Positions 7,471 through 33,364 of a DNA stretch of 37,804 nt are shown here, one piece after another. The DNA is taken from contig JAFYNR010000062.1 of assembly GCA_017548045.1 (NCBI GenBank), positions 1 through 37,804 on the forward strand. Reading direction: 5' to 3'. The notes below the pieces were generated by a model. It had not been told where the DNA came from. It did not search any database and worked only from the letters and a program-made list of their open reading frames with translations. The position numbers and the translations under genes were made by a program. The stretch's first letter is position 1. Every line of letters begins with the position of its first letter. Source of the DNA: Clostridia bacterium (GTDB lineage: Bacteria > Bacillota > Clostridia > Oscillospirales > Acutalibacteraceae).

Positions 7471-7499
7471 TTTACTTTTTATTAATATAGTGTTAATAT
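7471..7499 (+). promoter_or_regulatory. Probable SigA promoter of the long hydrolase operon
   Basis: TTTACT (7471-7476), a 17-nt spacer and TAATAT (7494-7499) lie in an AT-rich stretch 33 bases before the first gene. A shifted -10 (TAGAAT) is also possible. This is the only good promoter seen ahead of the ten-gene run. Confidence 0.55.
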
Positions 7500-7532
7500 A
7501 GAATAATAATAAAGCGGAAAGAGGTTGTCTTT

Positions 7533-9368
7533 ATGAAAAAGGTTATTGCGTTCATTATTTCGGCGGTGCTCGTTATGAGCATTGCTATGTCTCCTGCTTA
7601 TGCATCGGCGCAGGAGCAGACGGAATACGCTTCCGTTGTTGATTACGTTGCCGAGGCTGAAGCAAACGACGAAACCGATTCAAAAATAAAATTCGGCAGA
7701 ATAATCAACGGACTGAGCAATTTTGTGATTAACGATTTTCTCGGCACCGTGCTCAAGCTGATTCTTCCCGATTCTGCGGCGGTTGCGGATTATGAAAAAT
7801 TCGATATTGACAAATACGAAAATTTCTATGAGGGCACCGAAAATTTCATTGACGAGCCTCAGGGCGATAAGGTATGGAGTCTGGGCTACGGCAAGGCTTC
7901 CGTGCTTCCCGATGATTTCGGTGAAAAGCAGTATGCAAAGGGTGCCTACATACCCTATATTTTCGGCAACGATATGTATACCGATGAAGACGGCAACAAG
8001 GAAGACCTTATGGTAAGAGCAGTTGTTATGAACGACGGCTCGGGCAGAGGCAACGTGCTTTTCATTGCTCTTGATGCAATGGGCTTTGCCAATGCAGACG
8101 TAAGGCAGGTGCGTGCAGGCCTTAAAGAGCTTGCAGAGGAATACAACATTGTGAGCATCAACGTTTCCTGCACACATATCCACACGGGTATTGATTCACA
8201 GGGTGTATGGACAGACCCCATCGGCTGTATCATCAACAATTCCTTCAGCAAGATTACCCGTCACGTGAAATACGGCGTTGAGCGTTCCTTCATCGAGGCT
8301 GTTGTTGAGGGCTCAAAGCAGGCGGCTCAGGATGCTCTTGACGATATGACTCAGGGCAAGCTTTATTATTCGAGCATAAATGCCGAGAATTATATGAACG
8401 ACAGAACCGCACCCATTTCACTTGACACCAACATCTATAAGCTGGAGTTTGTTCCCTTTGCAGAGGATAAAACCCCCACAATCATTGCAACCTTCGGCTG
8501 TCATCCCGAATCCGCAAGCTACGACTGGGCAAGCGCAGACCCCGAAAAGACCCTTTCCTTCGATAAGAAGTTCACCCCCGATTTCATCTGGAGTGCGGAG
8601 ATGGTTATGAACGATGCAGGCTATAACTTCATTTTCCTGCAGGGCAACGTTTCAACCGTAACCTCATCAAGATATTACACGGGTGACGGCGTTGACGAAT
8701 TCCCCGGCAACGCTCATTATACTTCTGTCCGTTACGGCTACGAAATCGCATATATCCTTCTGGGTATGAATATGAACGAAGCCGAAAGAATTGCACTCAA
8801 CGAGGCAACGGGTGACAGGCTTGACATTGCAAAATATAACGGTCAGGGCAGATACACCGTATGGTACGAGGGTCTTGAAACTGTTGACGCAAAGGAAGTA
8901 AAGCCCGTTCTCAACATAAAGCACAAGCAGTTCACGGTTCAGATTGATAACAATGTTATCGTTCTTCTGGGCAAAACCTCTGTTGCGGATAACTTTGTGC
9001 TCAAAGATAATTTCGGCAGATACTACACCGTATCCGAAGTGGGCTACCTTGAAATCGGTGACGATATGAAGGTTTATATGAGCCCCGGCGAAACCTTCGG
9101 TGAGCTTGTTTTCGGCGGCAAGGGTGCAGAGGGCTTTGAGCTTGCACCCGTGAGAGAATACACAGGCGAGGATATTATCGTTATGGACCTTATGAACGAT
9201 GCCGCAGGCTACGTTGCAAACCCTGCCAACTACTGCCTTGCAGGTATTCAGTATAACGAAGAAAAGGGTGAATATGACAGCGATACCTGGTGCCTTATCT
9301 CATACGGCAAGGGTGCCGCACCCAAATTCATCGGCAGCTTCTACGAAATTTATGACAGTGTAAGATGA
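7533..9368 (+). CDS. Exported neutral-ceramidase-like hydrolase (copy 1)
   Basis: Resembles the neutral/alkaline non-lysosomal ceramidase N-terminal domain family, zinc amidases that in known members cleave the N-acyl bond of ceramide. A Sec signal peptide spans residues 1-26 (ending AYASA). A short hydrophobic helix region (about 55-82) follows, then the catalytic domain: RAVVMNDGSGRGNVLFIALD (162-181), the zinc-type motif THIHTG (214-219), GCHPE (322-326) and QGNVS (370-374), where the family has its QG..S active-site serine. About 611 residues, close to the family length, with a beta-rich C-terminal end. It is first gene of the operon; GAGG lies just before the start. The next gene begins 1 base after its stop. 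The family call is moderately secure. Activity on ceramide is not shown, as many clostridial members are uncharacterised. Confidence 0.7.
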   Translation: MKKVIAFIISAVLVMSIAMSPAYASAQEQTEYASVVDYVAEAEANDETDSKIKFGRIINGLSNFVINDFLGTVLKLILPDSAAVADYEKFDIDKYENFYEGTENFIDEPQGDKVWSLGYGKASVLPDDFGEKQYAKGAYIPYIFGNDMYTDEDGNKEDLMVRAVVMNDGSGRGNVLFIALDAMGFANADVRQVRAGLKELAEEYNIVSINVSCTHIHTGIDSQGVWTDPIGCIINNSFSKITRHVKYGVERSFIEAVVEGSKQAAQDALDDMTQGKLYYSSINAENYMNDRTAPISLDTNIYKLEFVPFAEDKTPTIIATFGCHPESASYDWASADPEKTLSFDKKFTPDFIWSAEMVMNDAGYNFIFLQGNVSTVTSSRYYTGDGVDEFPGNAHYTSVRYGYEIAYILLGMNMNEAERIALNEATGDRLDIAKYNGQGRYTVWYEGLETVDAKEVKPVLNIKHKQFTVQIDNNVIVLLGKTSVADNFVLKDNFGRYYTVSEVGYLEIGDDMKVYMSPGETFGELVFGGKGAEGFELAPVREYTGEDIIVMDLMNDAAGYVANPANYCLAGIQYNEEKGEYDSDTWCLISYGKGAAPKFIGSFYEIYDSVR

Positions 9369-9369
9369 T

Positions 9370-12300
9370 ATGAAGAATAAATCAAAAATTTATACCGCAT
9401 CCAATGCTCATCTGGATACCTCGTGGCTGTGGACTCTGGAACAGAGCATTGATGAGTTTATACCCGATACTCTTAAAAGGAATTTTGAGTTTATCAAAAA
9501 ATATCCCGAATACAAATTCAATTTCGAGGGCAGCTACAGATATGAGCTGATAAAGGAATACTACCCCCAGGAATTTGAAAGGCTGAAAAAATACGTTGCC
9601 GAGGGCAGATGGAATCCCTGCGGTGCCTGCTACGAAAACGGCGACGTGAATATTCCCTCACCCGAGGCGCTGACACGGAACATTCTTTACGGCAACGGCT
9701 TTTTCCGTGAGGAGCTTGGCAGTGAATCCAACGATATCTTCCTGCCCGACTGCTTCGGCTTCGGCAAGGCACTGCCTCAGGTTGCGGCTCATTCGGGGCT
9801 GACGGGCTTTTCAACGGGCAAGCTCTTCTGGGGCTGCAGTGTTGACGTACCTTTTGATATCGGCAGATGGACGGGTGCCGACGGCAGCGGTGTATGGGCG
9901 GCGCTCAAGCCCTTTTCATACACCACGATTTTCAAAAAGCTTCCCAAGGCAAAGCGTGTGCTTGAAAAGCTTGAAAAATCAAAAGAAAAAAATCTTCCCC
10001 TCATTACCTTTGCCTACCACGGCAACGGCGACAGAGGGGGAGCGCCCCATAAATCATCGGTAAAGAATATTGTTGACGCTCAAAGGAACAACGAAAATTC
10101 AGATGTTGAGGTTTATTCCGCAACCACCAAGGAATTTTTTGATGCCCTTGAAACGATGCCCCAAGATGAAAAAGCAAAAATGCCCGTTTATGACGGCGAA
10201 TTTCTGCTGACAGCCCACGGTACGGGCAGTTACACCGCAAGAACGGTTACGAAAAGGTGGAACAGAAGAAGCGAGCTTCTCTGGGATGCCGCCGAAAGAT
10301 TCTCTGCCGCCGCTTACGTAAACGGCTTTGCACCCTATCCGCAGTACGGTCTTGACTGCGGAATAAAAAAGGTTATTGCCCACCATTTTCACGATGATAT
10401 CACGGGCACATCCTTTGAGGAATGCTACAAGAGAAGCCACAACGATTACGTTCAGGCAATGAACACATTCTCTGCGGAATACACAGCCGCCTGCAAGGCT
10501 CTTGCAAAAAATCTTGACACCGACTTTGTGACGGGCATACCCGTTGTTGTTGCAAACCCCGTGCAGAGCGTATCTTCAAGAAAAGGTGCGGTAAGTGTTG
10601 TGCTGAATACCGACGGGGAAAGCTTTTCCGTTTTCGGTAAAGAGGGCAGTGAAGTTCCCTCGCAGGTGAAAAAATTATCAGACGGTAAAAGGGAAATCAC
10701 CTTTATTGCGGATGTTCCGTCCTGCGGTATGGCGGTTTACGATTTGCGTGAGGGCAAGGAATGCGAAAGCAAAACGGAGCTTGCCGTTACGGAAAATTCC
10801 CTCCAAAACAAATACCTTGCGGTTAAAATCGACGGAAACGGGGATATCTGCTCCGTATACGATAAAACCCTTGGCAGGGAGCTTATCAAAAGCCCCGTAA
10901 GGCTTGGGATTTATAACAATATCCACAGCCTTGAATGGCCTGCCTGGGAAGTTAAATACAAGGATCTGTGCGAAAAGCCCTATATGTATGCAGGCAGTCC
11001 CGAAATTAAAATCAGGGATAAGGGCCCTGCGCTCTGCTCCCTTGAAATCACAAGAACAGCAGGCAAATCAAGGTTCACTCAGATAATCTCCCTTGACAGT
11101 GAAAGCAGTTGTGTTTCGGTTTATAACGAAACCGATTGGCGTGAGGAAGCTTCGCTTCTGAAAGCGGAATTCTGCTTCACCGCAGAGAATGAATATGCGG
11201 AATACGATACGGGCATCGGCTGTGTTCAGAGAGGCACCAACACCGAAAAGCTCTGCGAGGTGCCTGCACAGAAATGGGCGGATATTACCCACAAAGACGG
11301 CGGATACGGCGTTGCGGTATTCAGCGATTCAAGGCAGGGATGGGATAAGCCCGACAGCTCAACCCTTCGACTGACACTTATCCACACGCCGATGAATAAC
11401 TACCGCCACGAATGCTCACAGCACGTTATGGATATGGGTCTTAACCGATATTCCTTTGCGATAAAGGGCAATTCGGGAAGCACTGAAAATATGACTGCAT
11501 ATGCGGATGAATTCTGCCAGCCCATGCATACCTTCATCACCGAAAAGCACGGCGGTGAATGGGGCAGAGAATATTCATTTGCAAGGCTCAGCAACGATAA
11601 GGTGAGAATCACGGCACTTAAAAAGGCGCAGAATTCCGACGGAATAATTCTCCGTGTTGCGGAGTGCTCGGGCAGTGAGCAAAAGGGTGTTGAAGCATCT
11701 TTTTCACTTCCCGTTCAGAAGGCATTTGAGGTCAGAGGCGACGAACAGAATCCCCGAAGCGTTGATGTAACCGACGGCAGACTCATTTTTGATATGGGTC
11801 GCAATCAGATAAGAAGCTTTGAAATTGTGTTTGCAAAAGAAGAAACAAAGCAGAAAAGCGTAAGCATTCCGCTGAATTTCAACGCCGTGGGTATCACGAC
11901 AGATAAAAACCGCAGTGCCTCAACCCTTAAAGGGGGAGTGTCAATACCCCGTGAAATCACGCCCGAAGGCTTTGCTTTTTCGGGAATTGAGTATGAATTT
12001 TCAAAGGATGAGGGTGAAAACTGCCTTGTGTGTGACGGCGGCGAAATCGTCCTTGACGGTGAGTACAAAGCCCTTCACCTGCTGGTTGCCTCTTTGGGCG
12101 GAGATAAAACCGTCGGCATAGGCGGCAAGGAGGTTACGGTGCCCGATTGCGCCGAGGCTCTGGGCTTATGGGATTTGATGATGCTTCGTGAAACGGGTTA
12201 CATAAAGCCCGTGCCTCAGGCAATAACTCTGAGCCATACCCATTGCCCCGAGGGTAATCTTACCGCAAAGCAGTTTTATCTTTTCAGCGTGAAAATACCC

Positions 12301-12657
12301 GTTGAGGGCAAAAAAGCCGTAGCCCTTCCCGACGATAAGGATATTGTCATATTCTCCGCATCGGCAGTGAAAGAGGATACCCTTTTCGAAAAGGGCGGTG
12401 CTCATTTCGATGAGCTTGAAAAAAGAAAGTTCGACTATGAATTTTCCGATTACGCAAAAAAGCATATGCAGAGGAATTTGTTTGAGCGTGTGCTTGATAA
12501 AATCGTTGACAGAAACCTTGTTATCAATATGGTGACAGGCGAATTCTACAATAAATATTCTCTCAGCGACCTTTATTTCATATTCAGAACCGCCCGTGAC
12601 AGGCTTATGCACAAGAAGGATATGAAAAGAGTTATTGAGAGCAGAAATAAGAAGTAA
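9370..12657 (+). CDS. GH38 family alpha-mannosidase
   Basis: Glycoside hydrolase family 38, retaining zinc-dependent alpha-mannosidase. All four landmark residues are visible: AHLDTSW with zinc ligands H14 and D16, LPDCFGFGKALPQ with nucleophile D127, and HDDITGT (341-347) with the third zinc ligand region. FAYHGNGDRGG (214-224) is also typical. At 1095 residues it has the usual catalytic N-terminal third, then a three-helix part and large beta-sandwich domains. There is no signal peptide, so it acts in the cytoplasm on imported mannosides. Translation is probably coupled to the upstream gene: the ATG starts 1 base after that stop and no separate strong ribosome site is seen. It sits between the two ceramidase-like genes and shortly before a GPH sugar symporter, which points to use of a mannosylated lipid or glycan. 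Confidence 0.93.
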   Translation: MKNKSKIYTASNAHLDTSWLWTLEQSIDEFIPDTLKRNFEFIKKYPEYKFNFEGSYRYELIKEYYPQEFERLKKYVAEGRWNPCGACYENGDVNIPSPEALTRNILYGNGFFREELGSESNDIFLPDCFGFGKALPQVAAHSGLTGFSTGKLFWGCSVDVPFDIGRWTGADGSGVWAALKPFSYTTIFKKLPKAKRVLEKLEKSKEKNLPLITFAYHGNGDRGGAPHKSSVKNIVDAQRNNENSDVEVYSATTKEFFDALETMPQDEKAKMPVYDGEFLLTAHGTGSYTARTVTKRWNRRSELLWDAAERFSAAAYVNGFAPYPQYGLDCGIKKVIAHHFHDDITGTSFEECYKRSHNDYVQAMNTFSAEYTAACKALAKNLDTDFVTGIPVVVANPVQSVSSRKGAVSVVLNTDGESFSVFGKEGSEVPSQVKKLSDGKREITFIADVPSCGMAVYDLREGKECESKTELAVTENSLQNKYLAVKIDGNGDICSVYDKTLGRELIKSPVRLGIYNNIHSLEWPAWEVKYKDLCEKPYMYAGSPEIKIRDKGPALCSLEITRTAGKSRFTQIISLDSESSCVSVYNETDWREEASLLKAEFCFTAENEYAEYDTGIGCVQRGTNTEKLCEVPAQKWADITHKDGGYGVAVFSDSRQGWDKPDSSTLRLTLIHTPMNNYRHECSQHVMDMGLNRYSFAIKGNSGSTENMTAYADEFCQPMHTFITEKHGGEWGREYSFARLSNDKVRITALKKAQNSDGIILRVAECSGSEQKGVEASFSLPVQKAFEVRGDEQNPRSVDVTDGRLIFDMGRNQIRSFEIVFAKEETKQKSVSIPLNFNAVGITTDKNRSASTLKGGVSIPREITPEGFAFSGIEYEFSKDEGENCLVCDGGEIVLDGEYKALHLLVASLGGDKTVGIGGKEVTVPDCAEALGLWDLMMLRETGYIKPVPQAITLSHTHCPEGNLTAKQFYLFSVKIPVEGKKAVALPDDKDIVIFSASAVKEDTLFEKGGAHFDELEKRKFDYEFSDYAKKHMQRNLFERVLDKIVDRNLVINMVTGEFYNKYSLSDLYFIFRTARDRLMHKKDMKRVIESRNKK

Positions 12658-12671
12658 AGGGGAAATTTCAG

Positions 12672-14408
12672 ATGAAAAAAATCATTGCAGTTATTCTTGC
12701 GGTAACGCTTGCGTTTTCGGGTACGGTCTTTGCCGCCGCATCCGACGGCGAGGCAATGGATAACAGCGGAATTATGTTCTGCACCAACGCCATAAACGGC
12801 ATTCTCAATGCGGTATTCAAGGGCTTCGGCGCCCTTTTTCCCAAGGATTTTGCAGATATAGAAGATTATGAAACCGAAAATTTCTATGAGGGCACCGAAA
12901 ATTTCATTGATGCTCCTGCGGAAAACGCAAAATGGTATCTGGGCTTCGGCAAGGCAAGTATGGTGCCCGAAAATCTGAAGGACGGCTCCAAGGAATATTA
13001 CACAGGCGGCTATTTCACCCAGAAAATCAACGGCGTTTACGACGACCAGGGCGCAAATGCCGTGGCTCTTACCGATAATTCGGGCAGAGGCACCGTTGTT
13101 ATGGTTGCGGTTGACGGTATCGGCGTTTGCAATGCGGACGTAAGAACAATCCGTGCCGAGGCTGAAAAGAAGCTTGCGGATATGGGTGTTGAGAGCGATA
13201 TCGTTGCAATCAACATCAACAGCACCCACTGCCATACGGTTATCGACACTCAGGGCTTCGGTCTTGAGCCTCTCATCAAAACCGTATTTCAGAATCTTTT
13301 CTCATTCCTGCCCTTTATTGAAAAAACAAGGAGCATCGACCCCGAATTCTATGAGCTTATGATTGACGGCGCATCTGACGCAATCGTTGAGGCATATACC
13401 TCAATGGAGCCCGGCACTCTTTATTATTTTGAAACCGAGGGCATCGGCAGAAGCGAAAGAAACAACAATTATATGGATGACAAATACGGCTACATCTTCA
13501 ACAAGCGTTACGATATGGAGGGCTATCAGCACGTTATCGCCTGCTTCAAATTCGTGCCCGATAACAAGGAATCCGCCCCCACCGTATTTGCCAACGTAGG
13601 CGGCCATCCCACCACAATCAACAGAGAAACAAAGCTTCTCTCGGCGGATTACCCCAACTACACCGAATACAAAATGAACGCCGAGGGCATTAACTTTATG
13701 TTTATTCAGGGCGCACAGTCACCCATTTCCGTTAACGCAGGCGGCGTTGAAACCGAGGAAATCCTTGACGAAGTTGCAAAAGAGATTGAAGCCGACCCCG
13801 TTACCGAGGATTATGAGCAGGCAAAGAAGCTGGGCTACGAATTTGCAAGAATCATTCTTGAGGCCGAAGAAAACGCAAAGCCCGTTGAGCCTGTTCTCAA
13901 CGTAAAAATGAAGGAAATCGTTGTTCCTCTCGAATACGGTCTTATGGAGCTTGGCGCAGTTTCGGGGCTTCTGGGTCAGACCGTTGTGCGCGATAAATCC
14001 GCACAGGCAGGCTACTCGCTTATCACCGAGGTGGGCTACCTTGAATTCGGCACGGATATCGTGATGCTTACCGTACCGGGCGAGCTTATCCCCCAGCTTG
14101 TTTACGGTAACGTTGTTGATAAAACACAGTCATACACAGGCACAGACTGGAATTACGAATACACTGCGGATATCATCGGCGAAGGCAAAACCGTTCTTGT
14201 AATGGGTCTTTGCAACGACGCAATCGGCTACATCGTGCCCGATAACGATTACGCTCCCTTTATTGCGGATTCTCTCTGGAATACGGATATGGGCGAAAAG
14301 CTCTGGGGCGAGCCTCAGCGCCACTATGAAGAAATGCTTTCCGCAGGCAGTGAGGCAGGCTCATCGGTTATGAGCGAGCTTAATGCACTTGCAAAGGAAT
14401 ATAACTGA
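12672..14408 (+). CDS. Exported neutral-ceramidase-like hydrolase (copy 2)
   Basis: Paralogue of the first gene of the operon and a member of the same ceramidase-like zinc hydrolase family. Signal peptide 1-22 (ending TVFAA), an amphipathic segment at 38-56 (NAINGILNAVFKGFGALF), then the shared FYEGTENFID (71-80). The catalytic landmarks are STHCHT (184-189), GGHPT (310-314) and FIQGAQSP (345-351). The last matches the family serine motif better than copy 1, whereas GCHPE in copy 1 has become GGHPT here. 578 residues. GGGGAAA lies before the start, 14 bases after the mannosidase stop. The two copies are clearly diverged overall except for one 36-base identical block. They may split the work by acyl chain or head group; this is inference. 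Confidence 0.7.
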   Translation: MKKIIAVILAVTLAFSGTVFAAASDGEAMDNSGIMFCTNAINGILNAVFKGFGALFPKDFADIEDYETENFYEGTENFIDAPAENAKWYLGFGKASMVPENLKDGSKEYYTGGYFTQKINGVYDDQGANAVALTDNSGRGTVVMVAVDGIGVCNADVRTIRAEAEKKLADMGVESDIVAININSTHCHTVIDTQGFGLEPLIKTVFQNLFSFLPFIEKTRSIDPEFYELMIDGASDAIVEAYTSMEPGTLYYFETEGIGRSERNNNYMDDKYGYIFNKRYDMEGYQHVIACFKFVPDNKESAPTVFANVGGHPTTINRETKLLSADYPNYTEYKMNAEGINFMFIQGAQSPISVNAGGVETEEILDEVAKEIEADPVTEDYEQAKKLGYEFARIILEAEENAKPVEPVLNVKMKEIVVPLEYGLMELGAVSGLLGQTVVRDKSAQAGYSLITEVGYLEFGTDIVMLTVPGELIPQLVYGNVVDKTQSYTGTDWNYEYTADIIGEGKTVLVMGLCNDAIGYIVPDNDYAPFIADSLWNTDMGEKLWGEPQRHYEEMLSAGSEAGSSVMSELNALAKEYN

Positions 14409-14430
14409 TTCATTCTGAAGGAGTGTAAAT

Positions 14431-16035
14431 ATGGCTGAAAACAATGATTACAAGTCAAATGCAAAAGCCTATGAGGAGCTTCGGCGTATGCAGGAGGGCA
14501 ATGAGCAGAAATCTGCGGCATCCAAAACTCAGGACAGACGTTACGTGGGTACAAAGGAATCCGTGGGCTTCATCATCTGGGATGCGGCGCAAAGCTTCAA
14601 TATCAATATTTTTTCAAACCGATTCATCACAAGCATTGTAGGTGTTGACCTGGGTATCCAGACCGTTGTTAACACAATCAACAGCGTTTGGGATATTGTC
14701 AACGATATTTTCTTCGGTGCCGTGGTTGATAAAACACGTACCCGCTGGGGCAAGTTCAGACCTTATCTTATGTTCCTTGCCATCCCCGGCTGCGTGCTTA
14801 CCTGCCTTTATTGGCTTATGCCCCACCTTTTTGAGGGCACAACCTCCACTGACGTTACCAAAATGATGTTCTATCTGCTTCTCACCGTTGCCAGAGAGGG
14901 CATCACCACCTTCCAGACAATTTCAAGAACGGGTCTTATGTCAACCATAACCCCTCACCCCAACGACAGAACAAGGCTTATTACCCTTGCAAACTTCGCT
15001 TCGGGCTTCTTCGGTGAAAAGCTGCCCGAGCAGGCGGTTACCATTCTTATTGACGTGCTCAGAAGTATGTATCTGGGCGATGCAGGCAAGCTTGCCACGG
15101 CATATACAAACCTCTTTGTGGGTATGGGTGTATTCACCACCGTTGCCTCAAGCGCATCCTCCTTCTGGTTCTTCTACAACACGGAAGAAAGGGTTATGCA
15201 GTCCATAAAAACCCCCAGCGTGCTTATGTCCATCAAATCGGTTATCCGCAACAAGCCCCTGCTTCTCATAACTCTTTCCGATTTCCTCAGCGGCTTTGCG
15301 ATTAAGGGCAGTGAGGACGATTATTACACCGACGTTCTCCACTTCTCGTCAATGACCCTTGTTGCAGGCATACCTGCCGCACCCATCAGCCCTGCCAGCT
15401 ATGCCTGGGTACCCTGGATGAGAAGACGTTTCTCAAGCCGTCTGCTTTACATACTGGCAAAAGAAATCGGCAATATCCTTTATATCCCCGTTTTCCTTTT
15501 CGGCTGTATCGGTATGAAGAAGGATTATTCGGGCGGTATGTATCAGAAGGTTGTTCCCATGGGCATTGCAATGGCACTGTGGGAGATTATATGGACTCTG
15601 TTCTTCGGCCTTAAATCCGTTATCGGCACCGAAATGTATAACGAGGCAATGGATTACTGCGAATGGAAAAACGGCTACCGCACCGAGGCAATGGCTTCTG
15701 TTGCAAAGGGCATAGCCGCCAAGATATCCTCAAACACAAGCGCCGTTGTCACAACAGCCATAAAGAAGATGATAGGCTACGAGGCAAACGCATTCAGAAC
15801 AGGCACCGAGCAGACGGATAAGGTTAAGTTCTTCCTTTTCGCAATGTTCACCATTATCCCTGCGGTAACAGGCTCGCTGGGTATTATCCCCATGCTTTTC
15901 TATGACCTTGATAACGACAAGAAAGAAAAAATGTATGCCGAGCTTCTTGAACGCCGCAGAATGATGTCAGATGCGGTTGAAAGCGGCAACGAGGATATGT
16001 TGAAATTTGCAACCGAATCCCAGATAATCAGATAA
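14431..16035 (+). CDS. GPH-family sugar:cation symporter (MFS)
   Basis: Inner-membrane transporter of the glycoside-pentoside-hexuronide group (MelB-like). The signature loop after the second membrane helix is unmistakable: DKTRTRWGKFRPYL (about 105-118). About 12 hydrophobic segments are seen over 534 residues, with a hydrophilic N-terminal tail of some 45 residues and a charged C-terminal tail (LLERRRMMSD). Members carry oligosaccharides or glycosides with Na+ or H+. AAGGAGTG sets the start, 22 bases after the previous stop. Its place right after a cytoplasmic mannosidase suggests that it brings in the mannose-containing product released outside by the exported hydrolases. Substrate is inference from context. 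Confidence 0.9.
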   Translation: MAENNDYKSNAKAYEELRRMQEGNEQKSAASKTQDRRYVGTKESVGFIIWDAAQSFNINIFSNRFITSIVGVDLGIQTVVNTINSVWDIVNDIFFGAVVDKTRTRWGKFRPYLMFLAIPGCVLTCLYWLMPHLFEGTTSTDVTKMMFYLLLTVAREGITTFQTISRTGLMSTITPHPNDRTRLITLANFASGFFGEKLPEQAVTILIDVLRSMYLGDAGKLATAYTNLFVGMGVFTTVASSASSFWFFYNTEERVMQSIKTPSVLMSIKSVIRNKPLLLITLSDFLSGFAIKGSEDDYYTDVLHFSSMTLVAGIPAAPISPASYAWVPWMRRRFSSRLLYILAKEIGNILYIPVFLFGCIGMKKDYSGGMYQKVVPMGIAMALWEIIWTLFFGLKSVIGTEMYNEAMDYCEWKNGYRTEAMASVAKGIAAKISSNTSAVVTTAIKKMIGYEANAFRTGTEQTDKVKFFLFAMFTIIPAVTGSLGIIPMLFYDLDNDKKEKMYAELLERRRMMSDAVESGNEDMLKFATESQIIR

Positions 16036-16061
16036 TTGCAGAACACAACGGAGTATATATT

Positions 16062-17222: not shown

Positions 17223-17262
17223 AAGTGCAAAGTTGAAATTTGAGGACGGGCTATGCCCGTAC
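17222..17262 (+). repeat. Intergenic repeat relic with small hairpin
   Basis: AAAGTGCAAAGTTGAAATTTG (17222-17242 region) resembles strings at 3077-3090 and 7404-7428. It is followed by ACGGGC-TAT-GCCCGT (17246-17260), a 6-bp hairpin, in the 62-base gap between two operon genes. The hairpin lacks a T-run, so it is not a convincing terminator. Confidence 0.35.
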
Positions 17263-17284
17263 CCGTTTTAAGTGAGATGATAAA

Positions 17285-19162
17285 ATGAAAAAAAGATTTG
17301 TAAGCCTTATTCTTGCGGTGATAACGGTGATGTTACTTTTCACCGTTCCCGTATCTGCGGCGGAGAGGGGCTTTGCGGTTAAGGATGCGGTTATTGTCCT
17401 ACCCGAAAACGCAGGCATAACCGATACCTATGCGGCAGAGCGTCTGAAATATTATCTTGACGAAATTACGTCGGGAAATATTGAAATTGCATACGGCGGT
17501 GTGCACGACGGCTGTGCAATCACCCTGCAGAGCAACGCAGGCGGTGCAGACGGCAGCTATACCATTGCTTCAACCGAAAACGGGCTTGCCGTAACAGGCT
17601 CGGGCAACAAGGGCGTCATAAACGGTGTTTACCGATTCCTTGAGGAATTCTGCGGCTGTCACTGGTATGAGGCGGAGGTTATCGTTGTTCCCGAAAACGA
17701 AAATCTTACCGTTCCCCGTGATATCAATATCGAATATACCCCCTTCTTTGAGTATTCCGAAACGGATACAAGAAGTGCAATGGATGCGGAATTTTCCGTT
17801 GCAAACGGACTTACGGGCGGCATTTACAAAGACCTTTCACCCGAGCAGGGCGGTGCGGTTGAATATATCGGCGGCTCAAGCCACACCCTTGTCAATCGGT
17901 ATTGCAAGCCCTCGGTTTATTTTGAGGAGCATCCCGAATATTTTGCCCTGGTTGACGGCGTAAGAACGGGAACTCAGCTTTGCCTCACAAATGAGAACGT
18001 GAAGGACGTTGTGACTGCCGAGGCTCTTGCAGTGCTTGAAAAACAGCATAACCCCGATGCAGACGTGCAGATTCTTTCAATCACTCAGGCGGATAACGGA
18101 TATTACTGTCAGTGTGATAACTGTAGGTCTCTTGACGGTGCAACCGGCTCGCCTGCAGGCACAATGCTGACCTTCGTTAACGAAATCGCAGGCAGAATAA
18201 AGGCTTCGGGCAATTATGACAACGTAGCCTTCGACACCTTCGCCTATCAGTATACACGCAAGGCGCCCGTGGGTGTTGTGCCCCGTGAGGACGTTATAGT
18301 GCGCCTTTGCTCAATCGAGTGCTGCTTCGGGCACACTCTTGACGACCCCGATTGCAAAAGCAACACAGCCTTTATGCAGGATTTGTCGGAATGGAGCAAA
18401 ATCTGCAACAGGCTTTACATATGGAACTACAACCTCAACTGTGACGAAAGCATAAATATCTATGCCAATTTCGGCACGATGCAGAGAAACACTCAGATTT
18501 TTTATGAGCACAACGTAAAGGGAATCTATCAGCAGGGTGTTTATTACATCTCTGAAAGCGACGGCGAATTCGGTGAGATGAAAACCTATCTTCTCACAAA
18601 GCTTATGCAGAATCCCTACCTTGATTTTGACAAAGAAATGACGGAGTATATGACCGCTGTTTACGGTGACGGCGGCGTATACCTTAAGGAATTTATCGAT
18701 ATAGTAACCGACCATGCGGTTACAAAGTACAAGCACCTTTACCTTGAAGAGGATTCACGTTATTCACTGCCGGGTATGATGCCTTGGGAAGTGAGCAAAT
18801 GCGACGAGCTTTGGGAAAAGGCAAAGTCGCAGGCGGAAACCGAGGAGCAGCTTAACCGTATTCTTCGCTCGGAAATCTGCTGGCGATACTGGAAATGCTC
18901 CAATATGCGCTCGGAATTCTCCCTTCTTCAGCATCCCTATCTGTGGATGAAGGCGAGAAAGGACCTTTATAACGATTTTGTGAAATTCGGCATAACCCGA
19001 ATGGGCGAAAGACCCAACCACGAGCTTTCAAGCAACGATTTAAGGCATCTGACACGCAGGATTTACACCTGGATTACCCTCTATGACGAGCCCGTATGGG
19101 ATGCCATCAACCCCTATGCCGTTGCCTTCTACGAGCTTATGGAAAAGCTTTATAATTTTTAA
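17285..19162 (+). CDS. Exported DUF4838 protein, putative glycosidase
   Basis: Secreted protein of the DUF4838 family, related to GH20-like hexosaminidases and often found in glycan-use clusters; no activity is established for this branch. Signal peptide 1-26 (VPVSAA). The N-terminal alpha/beta domain (about 30-150) has YAAERLKYYLDEIT (49-62) and GNKGVINGVYRFLEEFCGC (108-125), the fold that precedes catalytic barrels in GH20/GH67-type enzymes. The barrel part has HPEYFALVDG (216-225), QLCLTNENV (231-239) and a CxCDNC group (275-280) that could bind metal or form disulfides. 625 residues. The last part is helical with many Trp and Tyr residues. It could remove a terminal sugar before the mannosidase acts, but the target sugar cannot be read from sequence. 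Confidence 0.75.
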   Translation: MKKRFVSLILAVITVMLLFTVPVSAAERGFAVKDAVIVLPENAGITDTYAAERLKYYLDEITSGNIEIAYGGVHDGCAITLQSNAGGADGSYTIASTENGLAVTGSGNKGVINGVYRFLEEFCGCHWYEAEVIVVPENENLTVPRDINIEYTPFFEYSETDTRSAMDAEFSVANGLTGGIYKDLSPEQGGAVEYIGGSSHTLVNRYCKPSVYFEEHPEYFALVDGVRTGTQLCLTNENVKDVVTAEALAVLEKQHNPDADVQILSITQADNGYYCQCDNCRSLDGATGSPAGTMLTFVNEIAGRIKASGNYDNVAFDTFAYQYTRKAPVGVVPREDVIVRLCSIECCFGHTLDDPDCKSNTAFMQDLSEWSKICNRLYIWNYNLNCDESINIYANFGTMQRNTQIFYEHNVKGIYQQGVYYISESDGEFGEMKTYLLTKLMQNPYLDFDKEMTEYMTAVYGDGGVYLKEFIDIVTDHAVTKYKHLYLEEDSRYSLPGMMPWEVSKCDELWEKAKSQAETEEQLNRILRSEICWRYWKCSNMRSEFSLLQHPYLWMKARKDLYNDFVKFGITRMGERPNHELSSNDLRHLTRRIYTWITLYDEPVWDAINPYAVAFYELMEKLYNF

Positions 19163-19217
19163 GTGCAGAGTGAATAAAGATTAATCACGCATTGAAATTT
19201 GCAGACCGGGAGATAAT

Positions 19218-19739
19218 ATGAAATACTACGCAGCACAGTTTCTGGGTATACTCGTTACCCTTGCAGTTATACTTACCCTTCAGATGAAAAAGAAAAAGCA
19301 GATGCTTTTTGTATCGGTGCTTTCCAACGTTTTCTCAGCCGCAAACATCCTTTTGCTTGACGGCTTCAATTCGGGCGTTGTGGTGTGCCTTGTGGCGGTG
19401 TGCCAGCTTTTCGTTTCCCTTTGGCACGAATACAAGGGCACTCAGTCGGGCACTGCGGAAAAGGTGATTTTCCTTATTCTTTATGCGGCAGGCGGCCTGC
19501 TGGGCTACAAAATACCCCTTGACCTGCTTTCAACCCTTGCGGCGGTGTTCTATATGCTGGCGGTGTTCCAGAAAAAAGAGCAGAACATAAGGCTTATGCT
19601 TCTTGCCAACCTTTCGCTGTGGACAATCTACCATTCCGTTCTCGGTTCAACCGCCGTTTTCGCTCAGATTGCAGGCATAATTTCATCCCTTATCGCCCTT
19701 TACAGGTTCAGAAATAAAAAGCAGGGAGGAGTTCAATGA
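19218..19739 (+). CDS. YgjV-like integral membrane protein
   Basis: Small membrane protein of about 173 residues with five or six hydrophobic helices. It resembles the YgjV family (Imp-YgjV), whose function is unknown. Visible landmarks are QMKKKKQMLFVSVLSNVF (22-39), a basic loop followed by an Asn-containing helix, and LLANLSLWTIYHSV near 128-141, the paired Asn/Trp/Tyr segments of this family. GGGAG lies 8 bases before the ATG. Its stop overlaps the next start (ATGA), so it is translationally coupled to the metallophosphoesterase, suggesting that the two products work together at the membrane. Confidence 0.65.
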   Translation: MKYYAAQFLGILVTLAVILTLQMKKKKQMLFVSVLSNVFSAANILLLDGFNSGVVVCLVAVCQLFVSLWHEYKGTQSGTAEKVIFLILYAAGGLLGYKIPLDLLSTLAAVFYMLAVFQKKEQNIRLMLLANLSLWTIYHSVLGSTAVFAQIAGIISSLIALYRFRNKKQGGVQ

Positions 19740-21001
19740 GTTCGATAAGCGGAATTTTTCTTGCGGTGCTTATTGCCTACGGAAGCTTTGTTTCCCTTCT
19801 GGCAAACCCCAAAGCACCTGCGGATACGGGGGATTTTACTCCCGTTGTAAGGTTCCTTGTCACAAGCGATTCCCATATCACCACCATAGGCGACGTTCAG
19901 AGCTTCAGACTTCAGCGTATGATTAAGCTGGGCTATGATATTGCCGAGAAGGATGAGGAATATAACGGACTTGATGCGGTGCTTGTTGCAGGTGATATTA
20001 CCGACGTAGGCACGAAAATCGCCTTCGGCAGCATCAAGGCGGCAACAAAGCCCGTTCTGAAGGAGGGAACACAGTTCCTTGCCACCGTATCAACCTCTCA
20101 CGATGACCGCAGTCTCGGTAAGGAATCCCTTACCTTATACAGCGAAATTATGGAGCAGGAAACGGATTTCCACCGTGTGATAAACGGCTTCCATTTCATC
20201 GGCGTTTCCGCCTCCATTAACGAAGGCGAGCATTACGGCGAATATCAGAAAAAATGGCTTAAAGAACAGCTTGACCTTGCGGTTTCGGACGACCCGTCAA
20301 AGCCCGTTTTCGTTATGCAGCACGAGCATATTCTGAATACGGTTTACGGCAGCTCGGATTTTGAGGGCTGGGGAATGCCCGATTTTGCGGAAATCCTCAA
20401 GGAATATCCTCAGGTCATTGATTTTTCGGGCCATTCACATTACCCCATAAACGATGCAAGGTCAATCTGGCAGGGTGAATACACGGCTTTGGGCACAGGC
20501 GGTCTTTACTATGCGGAGATCACCGTTGACGACGTGCGTACGGTTCACCCCGAAAATTACAGAAGCTGTTCAACCTTCTGGGTGGTTGAGATTGATAAGG
20601 ATAACCGCATAAGGCTCCGTGCCGTTGACCTGCTTGCAAAGGAATATCTTTGCGAATATATTCTCGAAAGCCCTTTTGACAGAAGCTATACCCCCGAAAA
20701 ACGCCTTGAGGCATCAAAGGCTCCCGTTTTTGACACGGATGCAAGCCTTAAAATTTCAAACGGCAAGGTTAAATTCAGTGCCGCGCAGTCAGCCGACGGT
20801 ATGCCGATTTTCATATACAGAGCCTTTGCCGTTGATGCACAGGGCAACAGAATTCCCGTGGGCAAAACCGTTCCGAAGTATTACCGCTATGACGTGCCTG
20901 ACAGGGTGACGATAGAGCTTGAAAATCTTCCCCAAGGGGAGTATACCGTTGAGGTTGTGGCGGAAAACTGCTACGGAATACAGTCAGCACCGCTGAAATA
21001 A
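19736..21001 (+). CDS. Membrane-anchored or exported metallophosphoesterase with altered GNHD motif
   Basis: Calcineurin-like phosphoesterase. An N-terminal hydrophobic segment (about 5-24) acts as signal or anchor. Motifs in order: SDSH (44-47), AGDITD (85-90), STSHDD (119-124), QHEH (195-198) and GHSH (232-235). The third motif is normally GNHD/E. Here the asparagine that bridges metal and phosphate is serine (S121), while H122 and D123 remain. The other phosphoesterase in this window (3167-4876) keeps GNHD. A C-terminal fibronectin-like beta domain (about 330-421, ending YTVEVVAENCYG) follows. 421 residues. It overlaps the upstream membrane-protein gene by 4 bases and is followed after 13 bases by a lipase-like gene. 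A phosphodiester of a lipid head group is an attractive but unproven target. Confidence 0.82.
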   Translation: MSSISGIFLAVLIAYGSFVSLLANPKAPADTGDFTPVVRFLVTSDSHITTIGDVQSFRLQRMIKLGYDIAEKDEEYNGLDAVLVAGDITDVGTKIAFGSIKAATKPVLKEGTQFLATVSTSHDDRSLGKESLTLYSEIMEQETDFHRVINGFHFIGVSASINEGEHYGEYQKKWLKEQLDLAVSDDPSKPVFVMQHEHILNTVYGSSDFEGWGMPDFAEILKEYPQVIDFSGHSHYPINDARSIWQGEYTALGTGGLYYAEITVDDVRTVHPENYRSCSTFWVVEIDKDNRIRLRAVDLLAKEYLCEYILESPFDRSYTPEKRLEASKAPVFDTDASLKISNGKVKFSAAQSADGMPIFIYRAFAVDAQGNRIPVGKTVPKYYRYDVPDRVTIELENLPQGEYTVEVVAENCYGIQSAPLK

Positions 21002-21014
21002 AGGAGAACTGAAA

Positions 21015-22877
21015 ATGAGAAAGATAATGAAAAGAGTGATAGCCTTTATGGTTTGTGCATCATTGCTCGCCTCGGCCCTTGCGCCGTCGGCATCGGCGCT
21101 TGAAACGGATTGCGGCGGCAGATGTGAGCATTCCCCCGTAATCGTTCTTCCCGGCATCAATCATTCGCCCACCTACCTTTACGATGAAAACGACGATCCC
21201 GTTACGTATAACGGCTCTCATATCGGCAGCACCCTGCTTATTCTTAACGAGGCGGCGCTTTCAACCTCCAACATTCTGAAGCTTGTGGGCAGTGCGCTGG
21301 GTACGATTCTTCTGCAGACCAACGTGGGTCTTGACAAGGTTGCCTATAATCTGGTTTCGGAAATCTTCAAATATCAGAGATGCGACGATAAGGGCGACCA
21401 CGTTGAAAACTTACAGACAAAAAGGTGGGATTATTCACTTGAGCATATGTCCGAGGAGGATCTTGACTGGACTTACAGAATGGTTCCCATGCAGGCGCTT
21501 GTGAATGAAATCGGTGAGGATCACGTTTATTTCTTCACCTTCAACCTTGTGGGCGACCCTATGGATTCTGCCGACGACCTTGCGCAGTACATTGAAATGG
21601 TAAAGGAGCAGACGGGTCACGAGAAGGTAACCCTTCTTCCCGTTTCCCTGGGCGGCACGATTCTCACCGCCTACCTTGAAAAATACGGCCACGGCGAGCT
21701 TGACCAGATTGTGAATGCGGTTGCCTGCCTTGACGGTACGGATATCGTTGCGGATTTCTTCGCAAGGGAATGGCGTCTTGATGACGAGTATCTCTACCAT
21801 CAGTTTATGACCAATATATTTATTGAATCCGAGGGCGAGCCTACTCTGGGCTACCTTATCAACACCCTTCTCCATATTATTCCCCGTTCGGGTGTGGATG
21901 CACTGCTTTCGGGTGCAATAAGCGCAATTCTCGATACCCTTATGCTTAACTGCCCTCAGTTCTGGGCTATGCTTCCCTCTTACAGATACGAAGCCCTTGC
22001 GGAAAGATACCTCAGCGATAAGCCCGAGCTTAAAGCAAGAACGGACAGCTTCCAGACCGCAAGACTGAATCTTAAACAGAATATTCTTGATGCGGTTGCC
22101 GACGGAGTAAGGGTTAACTCCATTTCCGGCTCCAACCTTGATTTCGGTGAAGAAATGTATACATATTTCAACATCGTTGCATCCGCCGAAAAGCATAATT
22201 CCGACGGTATCGTGAATCTTTCGTCAACAACTCTCGGTGCAACAGGTGCTCCCGGCAGGCTCACTCTTGCCGACGTTGACTACGAAAAGAACACCTATTG
22301 CACAAATCCCGACCATAATCACGTGTCACCCGACAATATGGTTGACGCTTCCACGGCAATTCTTCCTGAAAATACGTGGATTTTCCTTGACCAATACCAC
22401 GAAGTAGGTTACAATGATGTAGTACTCAATCTTGCAAAGGCAATTATTCTGGGCGAGGTAACGGACGTTAACGATAACCCCGAAATGTATCCCCAGTATA
22501 ATTACCCCTGCTACACCCAGAGCATCCGCCGCTGGAAGCTGCCCGATGCAAAGAGGGTAGATCAGTCAAACCTCAGCGAGGAGGATAAGGCAGAGCTTAA
22601 CGCGGCTATTGCCGAGGGCGAGGCGGTGCTTAAAATGACCGTTGCCGACCAGCCCCGTGTTGAAGCCGCAGAGGCAAGGCTTATTGCCATTCTTCACAAG
22701 GTGGGTGCGGAAGGCTACGAAAATATTGAGGTAAAAAAAGAATCGGCGCTTGACCCGATTCTTGAAGATATTACTTATGCAATGAGCAAGGGCTCGCTTT
22801 TCCTTCTGGGCGGCGGAAGTCTTATTGACAGAATTCTTTCACCCTTCAGAGCGCTTCTCAAGCTTATTACAAAGTAA
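21015..22877 (+). CDS. Exported lipase-like alpha/beta hydrolase (copy 1)
   Basis: Predicted secreted serine hydrolase distantly like LCAT/lipase-type alpha/beta hydrolases. Signal peptide 1-28 (SASA). Oxyanion-side strand VIVLPGINHS (42-51). Nucleophile elbow LPVSLGG (208-214), with S211; the first glycine of the usual GxSxG is proline or valine here. Probable acid D397 in NSDGIVNLSS and histidine H462 in YHEVGYND, the order expected for the triad. A second conserved string, DHNHVSPDNMVDAST (433-447), is shared with the next gene. The C-terminal 30 residues (LIDRILSPFRALLKLITK) form an amphipathic basic helix at the very end. 620 residues. AAGGAGAA lies before the start. Phospholipase or acyltransferase action is possible; the substrate is unknown. 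Confidence 0.68.
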   Translation: MRKIMKRVIAFMVCASLLASALAPSASALETDCGGRCEHSPVIVLPGINHSPTYLYDENDDPVTYNGSHIGSTLLILNEAALSTSNILKLVGSALGTILLQTNVGLDKVAYNLVSEIFKYQRCDDKGDHVENLQTKRWDYSLEHMSEEDLDWTYRMVPMQALVNEIGEDHVYFFTFNLVGDPMDSADDLAQYIEMVKEQTGHEKVTLLPVSLGGTILTAYLEKYGHGELDQIVNAVACLDGTDIVADFFAREWRLDDEYLYHQFMTNIFIESEGEPTLGYLINTLLHIIPRSGVDALLSGAISAILDTLMLNCPQFWAMLPSYRYEALAERYLSDKPELKARTDSFQTARLNLKQNILDAVADGVRVNSISGSNLDFGEEMYTYFNIVASAEKHNSDGIVNLSSTTLGATGAPGRLTLADVDYEKNTYCTNPDHNHVSPDNMVDASTAILPENTWIFLDQYHEVGYNDVVLNLAKAIILGEVTDVNDNPEMYPQYNYPCYTQSIRRWKLPDAKRVDQSNLSEEDKAELNAAIAEGEAVLKMTVADQPRVEAAEARLIAILHKVGAEGYENIEVKKESALDPILEDITYAMSKGSLFLLGGGSLIDRILSPFRALLKLITK

Positions 22878-22893
22878 CGAAAGGGGTATAATT

Positions 22894-24714
22894 ATGAAAA
22901 AAATCATTTCCTGCATCCTTGTGGTTGCACTGGCATTTTCAATGCTTACGGTAAGTGCATCCGCAGTGAAAACCGAGTGCAACGGCGATTGCGACACCTG
23001 TCCCGCCATTGTTGTTCCCGGTATCGGTCAGTCAAACGTATGGGCGCTTGACGAAAACGGCGATTACCTGCTTGATTCAGACGGCGAAAGAATAAGCTGC
23101 TTCCCCGCAATTTTCGACGTAGGCTCAATCGTAATGAGAGTTCTTGTTCCCGCACTTCTCACACTTGCAACTCAGCACGATATCGGCCTTTCAAATGCAC
23201 TTTGCGACGTTGTTCTGGATGCATTTTCAGTTAATCTCTGCGATGAAAACGGCAAAAACACAGGCAACCTCGAGGTTGAAAAATATCTTTATTCCGTAGC
23301 TGAATGCTCGGATTACGAAAAAAAGCAGATCTATAATAACATTCCTCTCCAGGCATTTGCCGAGCAGGCAGGCGAGGACCATCTCTATTATTTCGCATAC
23401 AACTCATTCGGTAACAACTACGACACCGTAAAAGAGCTTTATGAATTCATTCAGATGGTCAAGGAAGAAACAGGCCACGACAAGGTGAACATCGTTCCCA
23501 TCAGTATGGGCGGCTCCCTTGCAAACGCTCTGCTTCAGTATTATCCCGACGTTATGAATGACCTTAACAAGGTTGTTTATATCGTTCCCGCACTTAACGG
23601 CTCAACAATCGTAGGCGACCTTTACACAAAGAATTTCGCTTTCTTTGACACCGAATTCCTCTATAACGGCTTCCTTGAGGCGCTTATGGACGAAGAGGAT
23701 GCAAGAATGATTGAGGTTATCGCAAGAATCCTGCCCGACCAGGTTCTTTCAAGCGTGCTCAAAAAAGTTGCGGACTGCCTTGTTGAGGACGTTGCCGCAA
23801 ACGTTACAAGCCTTTGGGGTCTGTGTCCCAAGGAATATTACCCCGAAGCATCGGCTGCCCTTCTTGCAGACAAGCCCGAAATCAAGAGACAGACCGATAT
23901 GTTCTACGAGGCACAGGTAAATTCGCTTGCAAATATCCAGAAGCTTATTGATAACGGCGTTCAGGTGTTCAACATCGTTGACTACGACGTACCCCTTTAC
24001 CTCATCGGTAACTCCTGGAACGACGATAATGCAGACGGCGTTATCCACCTTTCATCAACAGCTATGGGCGTTCACAGCGCACTCTGCGGCGAAACTCTGG
24101 GTGAGGATTATCAGCAGGCAAACACAAGCGTAAACTGCTCCGATAAGTCACACAACCACATTTCACCCGATAACGTTGTTGACGCTTCAACAGGTCTTCT
24201 TCCCGACCACACCTTCTATTTTGACGGTCAGGGTCACGAGCAGACCGCAAGAAACGATGCTATCATCGCTCTTGCAACAAGACTTTTGGCAACCGATGAT
24301 ATTACCGACGTTTATTCAACCGAGGATTTCCCCCAGTTCAACGGCAGAAGAGATCCCCGTGCTCTCAAGAATACGTATATTCCCGAGGCAAAGGCAGTTG
24401 ATACTTCGGCTCTGAGCGCAGAGGATGCACAGGAGCTTGCCGAAGCACTTGCCGAGGCGGAAGCCTTCGTAAACAGCACCGCAAGCTATGACGGCCAGCA
24501 GAAGGAAGTTGAAACAAGACTTGTGAATATTCTTGTGAAGATAGGTGCAAGGGAAGCAAAGGTTGAAGAAGAGCCCTCAACCTTCTTCACAAATCTCAGC
24601 CTCTGGCTCTATGATACCTACGGCGCAAACGGCTTCTCCGAAATGCCCGGTCTTACGGTTGTGCTTCTTTTCAACACTGTATTCGGTGCAATCGGTTCAC
24701 TTTTCGGTAAATAA
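22894..24714 (+). CDS. Exported lipase-like alpha/beta hydrolase (copy 2)
   Basis: Tandem paralogue of the preceding gene. The start at 22894 is chosen because GAAAGGGG precedes it and the product then begins with a normal signal peptide (MKKIISCILVV, cleavage near SASA at 24); the longer frame from 22825 would overlap the upstream gene and bury that peptide. Landmarks: CPAIVVPGIGQSN (36-48), nucleophile elbow VPISMGG (201-207) with S204, ADGVIHLSS (380-388) with D381, SHNHISPDNVVDAST (419-433), and GHEQTARND (447-455) with H448. The tail ends in a hydrophobic helix (VVLLFNTVFGAIGSLFGK). 606 residues. It is the last gene of the long operon, 16 bases after copy 1 and 9 bases before a terminator. 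Sequence similarity to copy 1 is clear but not high, so the duplication is old. Confidence 0.68.
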   Translation: MKKIISCILVVALAFSMLTVSASAVKTECNGDCDTCPAIVVPGIGQSNVWALDENGDYLLDSDGERISCFPAIFDVGSIVMRVLVPALLTLATQHDIGLSNALCDVVLDAFSVNLCDENGKNTGNLEVEKYLYSVAECSDYEKKQIYNNIPLQAFAEQAGEDHLYYFAYNSFGNNYDTVKELYEFIQMVKEETGHDKVNIVPISMGGSLANALLQYYPDVMNDLNKVVYIVPALNGSTIVGDLYTKNFAFFDTEFLYNGFLEALMDEEDARMIEVIARILPDQVLSSVLKKVADCLVEDVAANVTSLWGLCPKEYYPEASAALLADKPEIKRQTDMFYEAQVNSLANIQKLIDNGVQVFNIVDYDVPLYLIGNSWNDDNADGVIHLSSTAMGVHSALCGETLGEDYQQANTSVNCSDKSHNHISPDNVVDASTGLLPDHTFYFDGQGHEQTARNDAIIALATRLLATDDITDVYSTEDFPQFNGRRDPRALKNTYIPEAKAVDTSALSAEDAQELAEALAEAEAFVNSTASYDGQQKEVETRLVNILVKIGAREAKVEEEPSTFFTNLSLWLYDTYGANGFSEMPGLTVVLLFNTVFGAIGSLFGK

Positions 24715-24723
24715 GAATAAATC

Positions 24724-24750
24724 AACCGGCGGAGAAATCCGTCGGTTTTT
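24724..24750 (+). terminator. Intrinsic terminator ending the long hydrolase operon
   Basis: AACCGGCGGA / TCCGTCGGTT (24724-24733 with 24738-24747), one G-T wobble, GAAA tetraloop, then a T-run to 24750. The -35 box of the next promoter begins 2 bases later. Confidence 0.85.
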
Positions 24751-28897: not shown

Positions 28898-28908
28898 ACC
28901 GTTCACCG

Positions 28909-29289: not shown

Positions 29290-29436
29290 TGTGTTTTAAC
29301 CTAAAAAGACACGGCAGGTGTTCTGACTTGTTACATAGCGTAATTTACAGTAATGGCGGTTGTTCAGGATTCGAACCTGATTTCCCTTTTGATTTACTCA
29401 GCGTACAACTTTTCAAACCGTATCTTGTCATATTTA
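29290..29436 (-). promoter_or_regulatory. Cobalamin riboswitch aptamer
   Basis: Minus-strand motifs match the B12 aptamer in order: GGGAA (29386-29382), GGTTCGAATCC in the place of GGTGnAAnTCC, CCGCC, ACTGTAA (about 29351-29345), and AAGTCAGAACACCTGCC (29329-29313), the form of the conserved box usually written near AAGCCAGAAGACCTGCC. It follows a consensus promoter and precedes a terminator. High cobalamin should end transcription of the ECF operon. Boundaries are approximate. Confidence 0.88.
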
Positions 29437-29446
29437 ACTGGTAAAC

Positions 29447-32487: not shown

Positions 32488-32503
32488 AAAGTAAGGAGTA
32501 AAA

Positions 32504-33346: not shown

Positions 33347-33364
33347 AAAGGGAGGAATAGATGA

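Follow-up and report, generated by a model that had tools for sequence, protein, structure and literature searches.

The window analysed here, a stretch of 37,804 nucleotides, is contig C60 in the draft genome (2.4 Mb) of a Clostridia bacterium and carries between positions 7533 and 24714 a row of ten open reading frames (ORFs), g1 to g10, all on the + strand, of which g1 and g3 encode ceramidase-like proteins. Comparison of these two genes with their relatives suggested that they belong to a ceramidase-like family which has expanded in this lineage and is linked to the salvage of amino sugars and cell-wall material; this is the new point of this work. The gaps between the ten ORFs are 1, 14, 22, 26, 62, 55, -4, 13 and 16 bases, the last value assuming that g10 starts at ATG 22894 (its mechanical ORF starts at TTG 22825). 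This spacing, from -4 to 62 bases, agrees with the first-pass annotation of this DNA, which had described ten same-strand genes with small gaps and one 4-base overlap. The terminator that it had placed behind the operon was also found, as a good intrinsic-terminator-like hairpin directly behind g10 (24724–24747, + strand; 10 pairs, a loop of 4 and a T-rich tail), in a region holding 36 terminator-like sites compared to 23.2 ± 4.7 in shuffles. The promoter that it had placed ahead of the operon is weak: the nearest promoter-like site ahead of g1, TTAATA-17-AATAAT (7482–7510, + strand), matches at 9 of 12 positions, and the number of such sites in the region (35 versus 25.5 ± 5.2) shows no clear excess over chance. 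The ten genes are presumably read as one transcript. Directly ahead of them lies a gene for a RepA_N/DUF6017 protein (6579–7391, + strand), which does not occupy the same place in the related genome G021 (locus L036).

The products of g1 (7533–9368, 611 amino acid (AA) residues) and g3 (12672–14408, 578 AA) are putative exported zinc hydrolases of the ceramidase type, g1 being PF04734-type; export was judged from the N-termini by eye together with a crude hydrophobicity score, by which the N-terminus of g1 is hydrophobic. Both fall under the 32.1-bit cut-off of PF04734 (28.9 bits for g1 and 22.0 bits for g3), and a sequence search of the PDB with either protein alone gave no match up to E 1. 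Of six scanned paralogs, one passes (the first copy at L044, 45.3 bits), two score below the cut-off and three give no match. Yet a profile of 33 family members matches, over the N-terminal domain, both human neutral ceramidase (4wgk, E 3.8e-9) and the Pseudomonas neutral ceramidase (2zws, E 5.3e-5). All 80 full-length family members (83 members in all came from the 58 regions fetched) share the HxH motif, a second His, the PGE Glu and the ND..GY Tyr, in agreement with a working metal site; g1 has each of these residues. In the profile alignment to 4wgk the HxH and the second His are aligned, and only a second, weak stretch (2.6 bits) covers the Glu and Tyr. The zinc-ligand roles are presumed here for all but two residues. 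According to an excerpt of PMC6952831, His196 and Tyr579 are catalytic in the human enzyme. GDVSPN, given as the ceramidase hexapeptide in an excerpt of PMC5874051, is not kept in the family; its place reads GNVSTV in g1 and GAQSPI in g3, with the active-site Ser retained in 14 of the 80 rows, g1 and g3 included. That Ser is said to hold Arg257 of the human enzyme (excerpt of PMC6952831), and the corresponding column, a by-eye reading of the alignments that is not to be leaned on, contains Arg in 43 of 80 members and Lys in g3. No second Pfam domain (the C-terminal Ig-like one) was detected in g1 or g3 at E 0.01, a scan that a diverged copy could escape. The ceramidase-like pair of the first-pass annotation is upheld by the profile match and the metal-site residues, although not by the Pfam threshold, and the sequences support g1 and g3 as predicted exported, metal-dependent, amidase-like enzymes.

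The domain names given on first reading to the genes around this pair (GH38, MFS_2, DUF4838, Imp-YgjV, Metallophos and GNAT) all pass the Pfam cut-offs. Between g1 and g3, g2 (9370–12657, 1095 AA) encodes a GH38 alpha-mannosidase with four GH38 Pfam domains (N-terminal, middle and C-terminal) over cut-off. Its top hits in the PDB are alpha-mannosidases, those of the Ams1 type among them; by eye the N-terminus shows no signal, and the enzyme is probably cytoplasmic. g4 (14431–16035, 534 AA) is an MFS_2/GPH-type cation symporter (130.2 bits) that scores under the NCBIfam gph cut-off TIGR00792 (141.5 of 231.35 bits) and shows weak likeness to the lysolipid symporter MFSD2A. Against MelB (E 4e-15) it retains the WD..ND cation motif with its Asp pair, and the place of D124 is not Asp; we take the pair to form the cation site of MelB and Asp124 to bind the sugar. 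g5 (16062–17222, 386 AA) encodes an Eis-like GNAT N-acetyltransferase with an SCP2-like C-terminus, in which the Acetyltransf_9 and SCP2_2 domains were found; the protein scores far below the NCBIfam Eis equivalog cut-offs. g6 (17285–19162, 625 AA) encodes a DUF4838 protein (267.6 bits) with a signal-like N-terminus by eye, suggesting export; its matches to NAGLU_N and GH20b are weak and below the cut-offs, and a PDB comparison gave one match only (E 0.64). It is followed by g7 (19218–19739, 173 AA), a YgjV-type membrane protein (Imp-YgjV, 69.1 bits), and g8 (19736–21001, 421 AA), a calcineurin-like phosphoesterase (Metallophos, 31.3 bits) that appears by eye to be exported or membrane-anchored and has an Rv0805-type match (E 2.7e-5). 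The operon ends with g9 (21015–22877, 620 AA) and g10 (22894–24714, 606 AA from ATG 22894), two putative exported alpha/beta hydrolases. These are paralogs (33% AA identity), g9 lying over one Pfam cut-off and g10 just over that of Lipase_2; a profile built from them resembles LipA-type lipases in the stretch around the nucleophile, and Ser204 and His448 of g10 are invariant in 21 aligned sequences. The lipase-like pair proposed at first stands as two related alpha/beta hydrolases.

Conservation of the operon was assessed at 21 orthologs of g3 (70–94% identical) from the genes that stand with each of them in a run on the same strand. g5 is present in 19 of these runs, g4 in 13, g1 in 9, DUF4838 in 7 and GH38 in 5, compared to 2 for g10, 1 for g7 and none for g8 and g9. 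Counted anywhere in the 21 loci, which extend at most 10 kb to each side and in some cases are cut by contig ends, g9 occurs in 8, g10 in 7, g7 in 3 and g8 in 2. The steady core given by the same-strand counts is therefore g3 with the g5 acetyltransferase, usually the g4 symporter and often g1. The first-pass annotation had proposed a conserved ceramidase-like/GH38/ceramidase-like/GPH core; the g1-GH38-g3 arrangement is indeed inherited (5 of 21 loci plus the window), but it is not the general core, and GH38, DUF4838, the phosphoesterase and the lipases come and go among the loci. The mannosidase is a recurrent but optional insert: when in the run it sits between g1 and g3 (5/5) and is 65–87% identical to g2, compared to only 24–26% for two other GH38s of the genus. 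Close relatives differ in the outer genes. g1 stands directly before the g4 symporter in G032 and G036, g1 and g3 are adjacent without GH38 in G022, and the G021 locus is without g6, g8 and g9. Such fast turnover would be expected if the operon were a loose assembly, in which g3, g4 and g5 share one job and the GH38, DUF4838, YgjV, phosphoesterase and lipase genes have no shared substrate. This seems unlikely to us, given that the same families recur in the same place, GH38 between g1 and g3 as above and DUF4838 directly behind the GNAT gene whenever it is in the run (7/7).

The loci of the nearest named relatives, metagenome-assembled Oscillospiraceae or Clostridia, name cecum, colon or rectum in 46 of 53 cases, with goat, sheep, cattle, yak, buffalo and deer as hosts, and the remaining 7 give no site; a ruminant hindgut would accordingly be the habitat of the window's genome. 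Searches with g1 found relatives in 43 of 45 genomes of the genus compared to 3 of 35 others, and among 391 evenly drawn Clostridia, with at most three candidates scored per genome, the profile matched in 20, the close ones being only the window's genome and two genomes of one other family. At least 175 distinct members were counted in 42 genomes of the genus. This list was merged by hand from the g1 search (eight g1-type rows, weaker rows dropped) and searches at E 1e-60 and E 1e-40, a broken G006 gene being entered once, without its second piece, and it undercounts the members; the chance expectations given below assume uniform placement. GH38 was rejected as a general partner of the family, since none of 150 places listed (of 207 found, the listed ones excluding the GH38s of the window and of G021) lies within 6 kb of the 175 members, with about 4.3 expected, and four lie within 8 kb.

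The genes that do accompany the family point to amino sugars. A member is found within 3 kb of 17 of 33 GH84 genes (0.82 expected) and within 6 kb of 11 of 12 MurQ genes (0.59 expected). Paralogs 60–67% identical to g3 precede a NagK-like kinase, a SIS-domain protein and GH84 in six loci (L115–L118, L120 and L147; L117 by a best segment of 63%, and the families checked in L120). A related row, NagK-SIS-DegT-DegT-PF04734 on one strand, occurs in a genus of another Clostridia family, there with PF04734 over the cut-off (L153 checked by Pfam and L158 by similarity). A GNAT gene lies within two genes of every unit that holds at least two family members (21/21 and 34/34 in two overlapping, non-random sets of units, the loci having been chosen for holding members, as 58 regions do). 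The g3-ortholog locus L114 reads, on one strand, NagK-like end, SIS, GH84, g10-type lipase, g1, GH38, g3, g5-type GNAT and DUF4838, and joins the mannosidase form and the amino-sugar form of the operon in one gene row; its kinase end, 53.7% identical over 134 AA by blastx, is a fragment without a Pfam match. The window's genome itself holds a further family copy behind a GH20 and a GH28-like gene (L049), and its own copy of the paralog cassette with MurQ (G000:C15).

These MurQ cassettes are built around a tandem pair of family members of about 490 AA. MurQ is present in 11 of the 45 genus genomes, the window's own included, and the first member of the pair (72% or more identical) in all 11 of them compared to 1 of the 34 others; in that lone exception, G006 (L080), the 11.8 kb contig also lacks the second member, GH84 and GNAT. 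The 12 tandem-pair loci of the 11 MurQ genomes contain GNAT in 12 cases, MurQ in 11, a NagK-like kinase in 11, GH84 in 10 and NamZ, which we take to be the ybbC product of Bacillus subtilis, in 7. Kinase, MurQ, GNAT, GH84 and the pair stand together in nine loci of eight genomes, in one of which (L072:10575–12058, G027) the second pair member is broken in frame. MurQ lies on the same contig but 197 kb away in G039, DUF4838 takes the place of GH84 in G041, and G044 is without GH84 there. Genes were named by Pfam and NCBIfam for L037, by family searches for MurQ and GH84 and by similarity clusters for the rest. A Fisher value of 1e-9 for the co-occurrence of MurQ with the tandem pair was set aside because the genomes are related and the genes linked. 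On a stand-in species tree (28 rows of one paralog, covering 28 of 45 genomes and 9 of 11 MurQ genomes) MurQ needs 5 changes, and the independent pairs, at most four, either agree or show no difference, with none discordant (p 0.125).

The co-occurrence speaks for a further reading, in which all members would be muropeptide amidases that cut the bond between N-acetylmuramic acid (MurNAc) and L-Ala and stand in for AmiE, with the operon serving growth on mannose-bearing wall polymers (for example lipoglycans) of other bacteria alongside peptidoglycan. In B. subtilis, amiE lies beside murQRP and nagZ (excerpt of PMC5061867), and Amidase_2, the AmiE/AmpD family, was found at E 1e-8 in 1 of the 45 genus genomes, where the sole copy follows a ceramidase-like gene at a distance of 31 bp (L051:9203–12005) and its N-terminus looks by eye like that of a lipoprotein. 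We nevertheless consider this reading the least probable of those weighed here, given that the window operon contains no MurNAc gene, that the four agreeing pairs are too few for significance and that Amidase_3 is encoded in 40 of 45 genus genomes, including 10 of the 11 with MurQ. The last count also ruled out a further idea, that the genus is without any muramoyl amidase.

The first-pass annotation had read the operon as a stepwise attack on a mannosylated sphingolipid or glycosylphosphatidylinositol (GPI)-like lipid, such as mannosyl-inositol-phosphoceramide, plant glycosyl inositol phosphoceramide, a GPI anchor or a lipoglycan, in which the ceramidase-like enzymes would take the N-acyl chain, GH38 the mannose, and the lipases and phosphoesterase the rest. 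Its starting point holds, in that genes for amidase-like enzymes, an alpha-mannosidase and a cation symporter stand side by side, with the mannosidase placed between the two ceramidase-like genes. The ceramidase-type metal site, the retention of the active-site Ser by both g1 and g3, and the exported lipases at g3-ortholog loci (g9 in 8/21 and g10 in 7/21) are consistent with it, as is the hindgut habitat of the relatives. Plant and microbial membrane remains are expected in hindguts. Several findings weigh against it: GH38 is found in 5 of 21 loci and the phosphoesterase in no same-strand run, the GDVSPN motif is lost, no second ceramidase Pfam domain was found, and a branch of close paralogs serves amino-sugar cassettes. 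The sphingolipid reading is possible though improbable, and it is no longer the best one.

Since paralogs of g1 and g3 are found in salvage cassettes for MurNAc and N-acetylglucosamine (GlcNAc), amino-sugar-containing glycoconjugates are indicated rather than ceramide as such, and the two enzymes may cut amide bonds other than that of ceramide. We therefore favour, tentatively, a reading in which the operon would be one of several in the genus that scavenge such conjugates by means of exported zinc amidases, here in a mannose-directed version. In the proposed pathway, including its direction of flow, order of steps and substrate, g1 and g3 would act outside the cell and cut a glycoconjugate at an N-acyl (amide) bond, the group removed being a peptide or acyl on an amino sugar, with ceramide as one possibility only. 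The g4 cation symporter would import the freed mannose-bearing product, g5 would acetylate the exposed amine in the cytoplasm so that acetamido-dependent enzymes can act, and the cytoplasmic GH38 (g2) would then remove alpha-mannose. The DUF4838 protein, the phosphoesterase and the two exported lipases may be helpers particular to single lineages, each removing further groups. GH84 and GH20 enzymes rely on the acetamido group of the substrate itself, and this would explain the presence of the acetyltransferase. A bolder extension, that the ceramidase fold was recruited in one ruminant-hindgut Clostridia genus for a family of exported amidases acting on amino-sugar conjugates, in which the tandem pair replaces AmiE in the salvage of peptidoglycan sugars and g1 and g3 serve a mannose-bearing conjugate, each with a re-acetylating acetyltransferase, appears doubtful.

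Several observations weigh against the amino-sugar reading. Pfam and NCBIfam scans found no GH84, MurQ or kinase gene in the window operon, and the exported lipases and phosphoesterase suit a lipid better than a sugar chain. Of the units with a single family member, no more than 6 of 40 and 11 of 19 in the two sets have GNAT within two genes; in the tandem loci GNAT lies on the opposite strand, and its linkage may trace to only two inherited arrangements. Four paralogs equally close to g3 (62–64%; L119 and L121–L123) lie behind MscS and cation-efflux genes, which argues against a simple sugar-gene rule. Other branches adjoin a GDSL hydrolase and, by eye, a PTS-like (phosphotransferase system) membrane protein, and further paralog branches have no recognisable sugar genes and none of the partner clusters alongside. 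DUF4838 was rejected as a genus-wide partner, with 1 of 78 genes within 3 kb of a member and 3 of 78 within 6 kb compared to 2.0 expected. The spread of Amidase_3 and the small number of independent MurQ pairs, given above, count here as well.

Further family loci were noted. In one branch (L076, L087–L092 and L124–L146) a tandem ceramidase-like pair lies beside GNAT, often with GH3 and/or GH42; genes for a cytidylyltransferase and for BNR_2 sialidase-like proteins are close by, making this a further glycan locus of the family. A distant Clostridia family, f37 (L148 and L149), holds ceramidase-like copies 42–44% identical to those of the genus, possibly a transfer. Downstream of the operon in the window, a cobalamin riboswitch (29296–29437, - strand; 52.8 bits) lies ahead of energy-coupling factor (ECF)-transporter-like genes (25675–28906, - strand), comprising an S component and a double ATPase by Pfam and a third gene without a Pfam match. 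At 29657–30841 (- strand) stands a gene for a CBAH/AAT-family amidase with a hydrophobic N-terminus, a second, unrelated type of amide hydrolase on the contig; the CBAH/AAT superfamily includes acid ceramidase and NAAA. Genes for a GH101-like protein (just below cut-off), a GDPD, a BspA-type leucine-rich repeat protein and an MFS-like transporter then stand in a row (31111–36300, + strand) that is 91–98% conserved in G021, where a MurQ/ceramidase-like cassette lies directly in front (L037).

Proteins of gut metagenomes that carry a label such as "neutral/alkaline ceramidase" are readily taken for sphingolipid enzymes, a reading that would be wrong for the whole expanded group if the family acts on amino-sugar conjugates; if so, the family would represent a new class of exported amidase in peptidoglycan and glycoconjugate salvage. 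A limited literature search, with the sources available in part, gave nothing tying ceramidase-like genes to sugar salvage, nor neutral ceramidase together with peptidoglycan and amidase.

Compared to known systems, g1 and g3 resemble neutral ceramidase (PF04734; ASAH2 4wgk and Pseudomonas 2zws) in the homology of the N-terminal domain, the zinc-site residues and the predicted export, and differ from it in falling under the Pfam cut-off, in the hexapeptides GNVSTV and GAQSPI, in the lack of a detected second domain and in having paralogs that accompany sugar-salvage genes. g2 has the full domain set of GH38 alpha-mannosidases, with Ams1-type enzymes the nearest solved ones, but represents a divergent subfamily placed between two ceramidase-like genes, and g4 resembles GPH symporters such as MelB in its MFS_2 score over cut-off and its Asp pair, unlike them in falling under the gph cut-off and at the Asp124 place. 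The MurNAc recycling cluster of B. subtilis is murQRP-amiE-nagZ-ybbC, as given in the excerpt of PMC5061867; the window operon itself is without MurQ, kinase and GH84, and the paralog cassette differs from that cluster in having a NagK-like kinase, no PTS seen, GH84 for NagZ and the ceramidase-like pair for Amidase_2. The paralog cassette is nevertheless like this cluster, as far as the excerpt describes it, in combining MurQ, a GlcNAc-releasing glycosidase family and often NamZ, with a predicted exported amidase-like pair where the B. subtilis cluster has AmiE.

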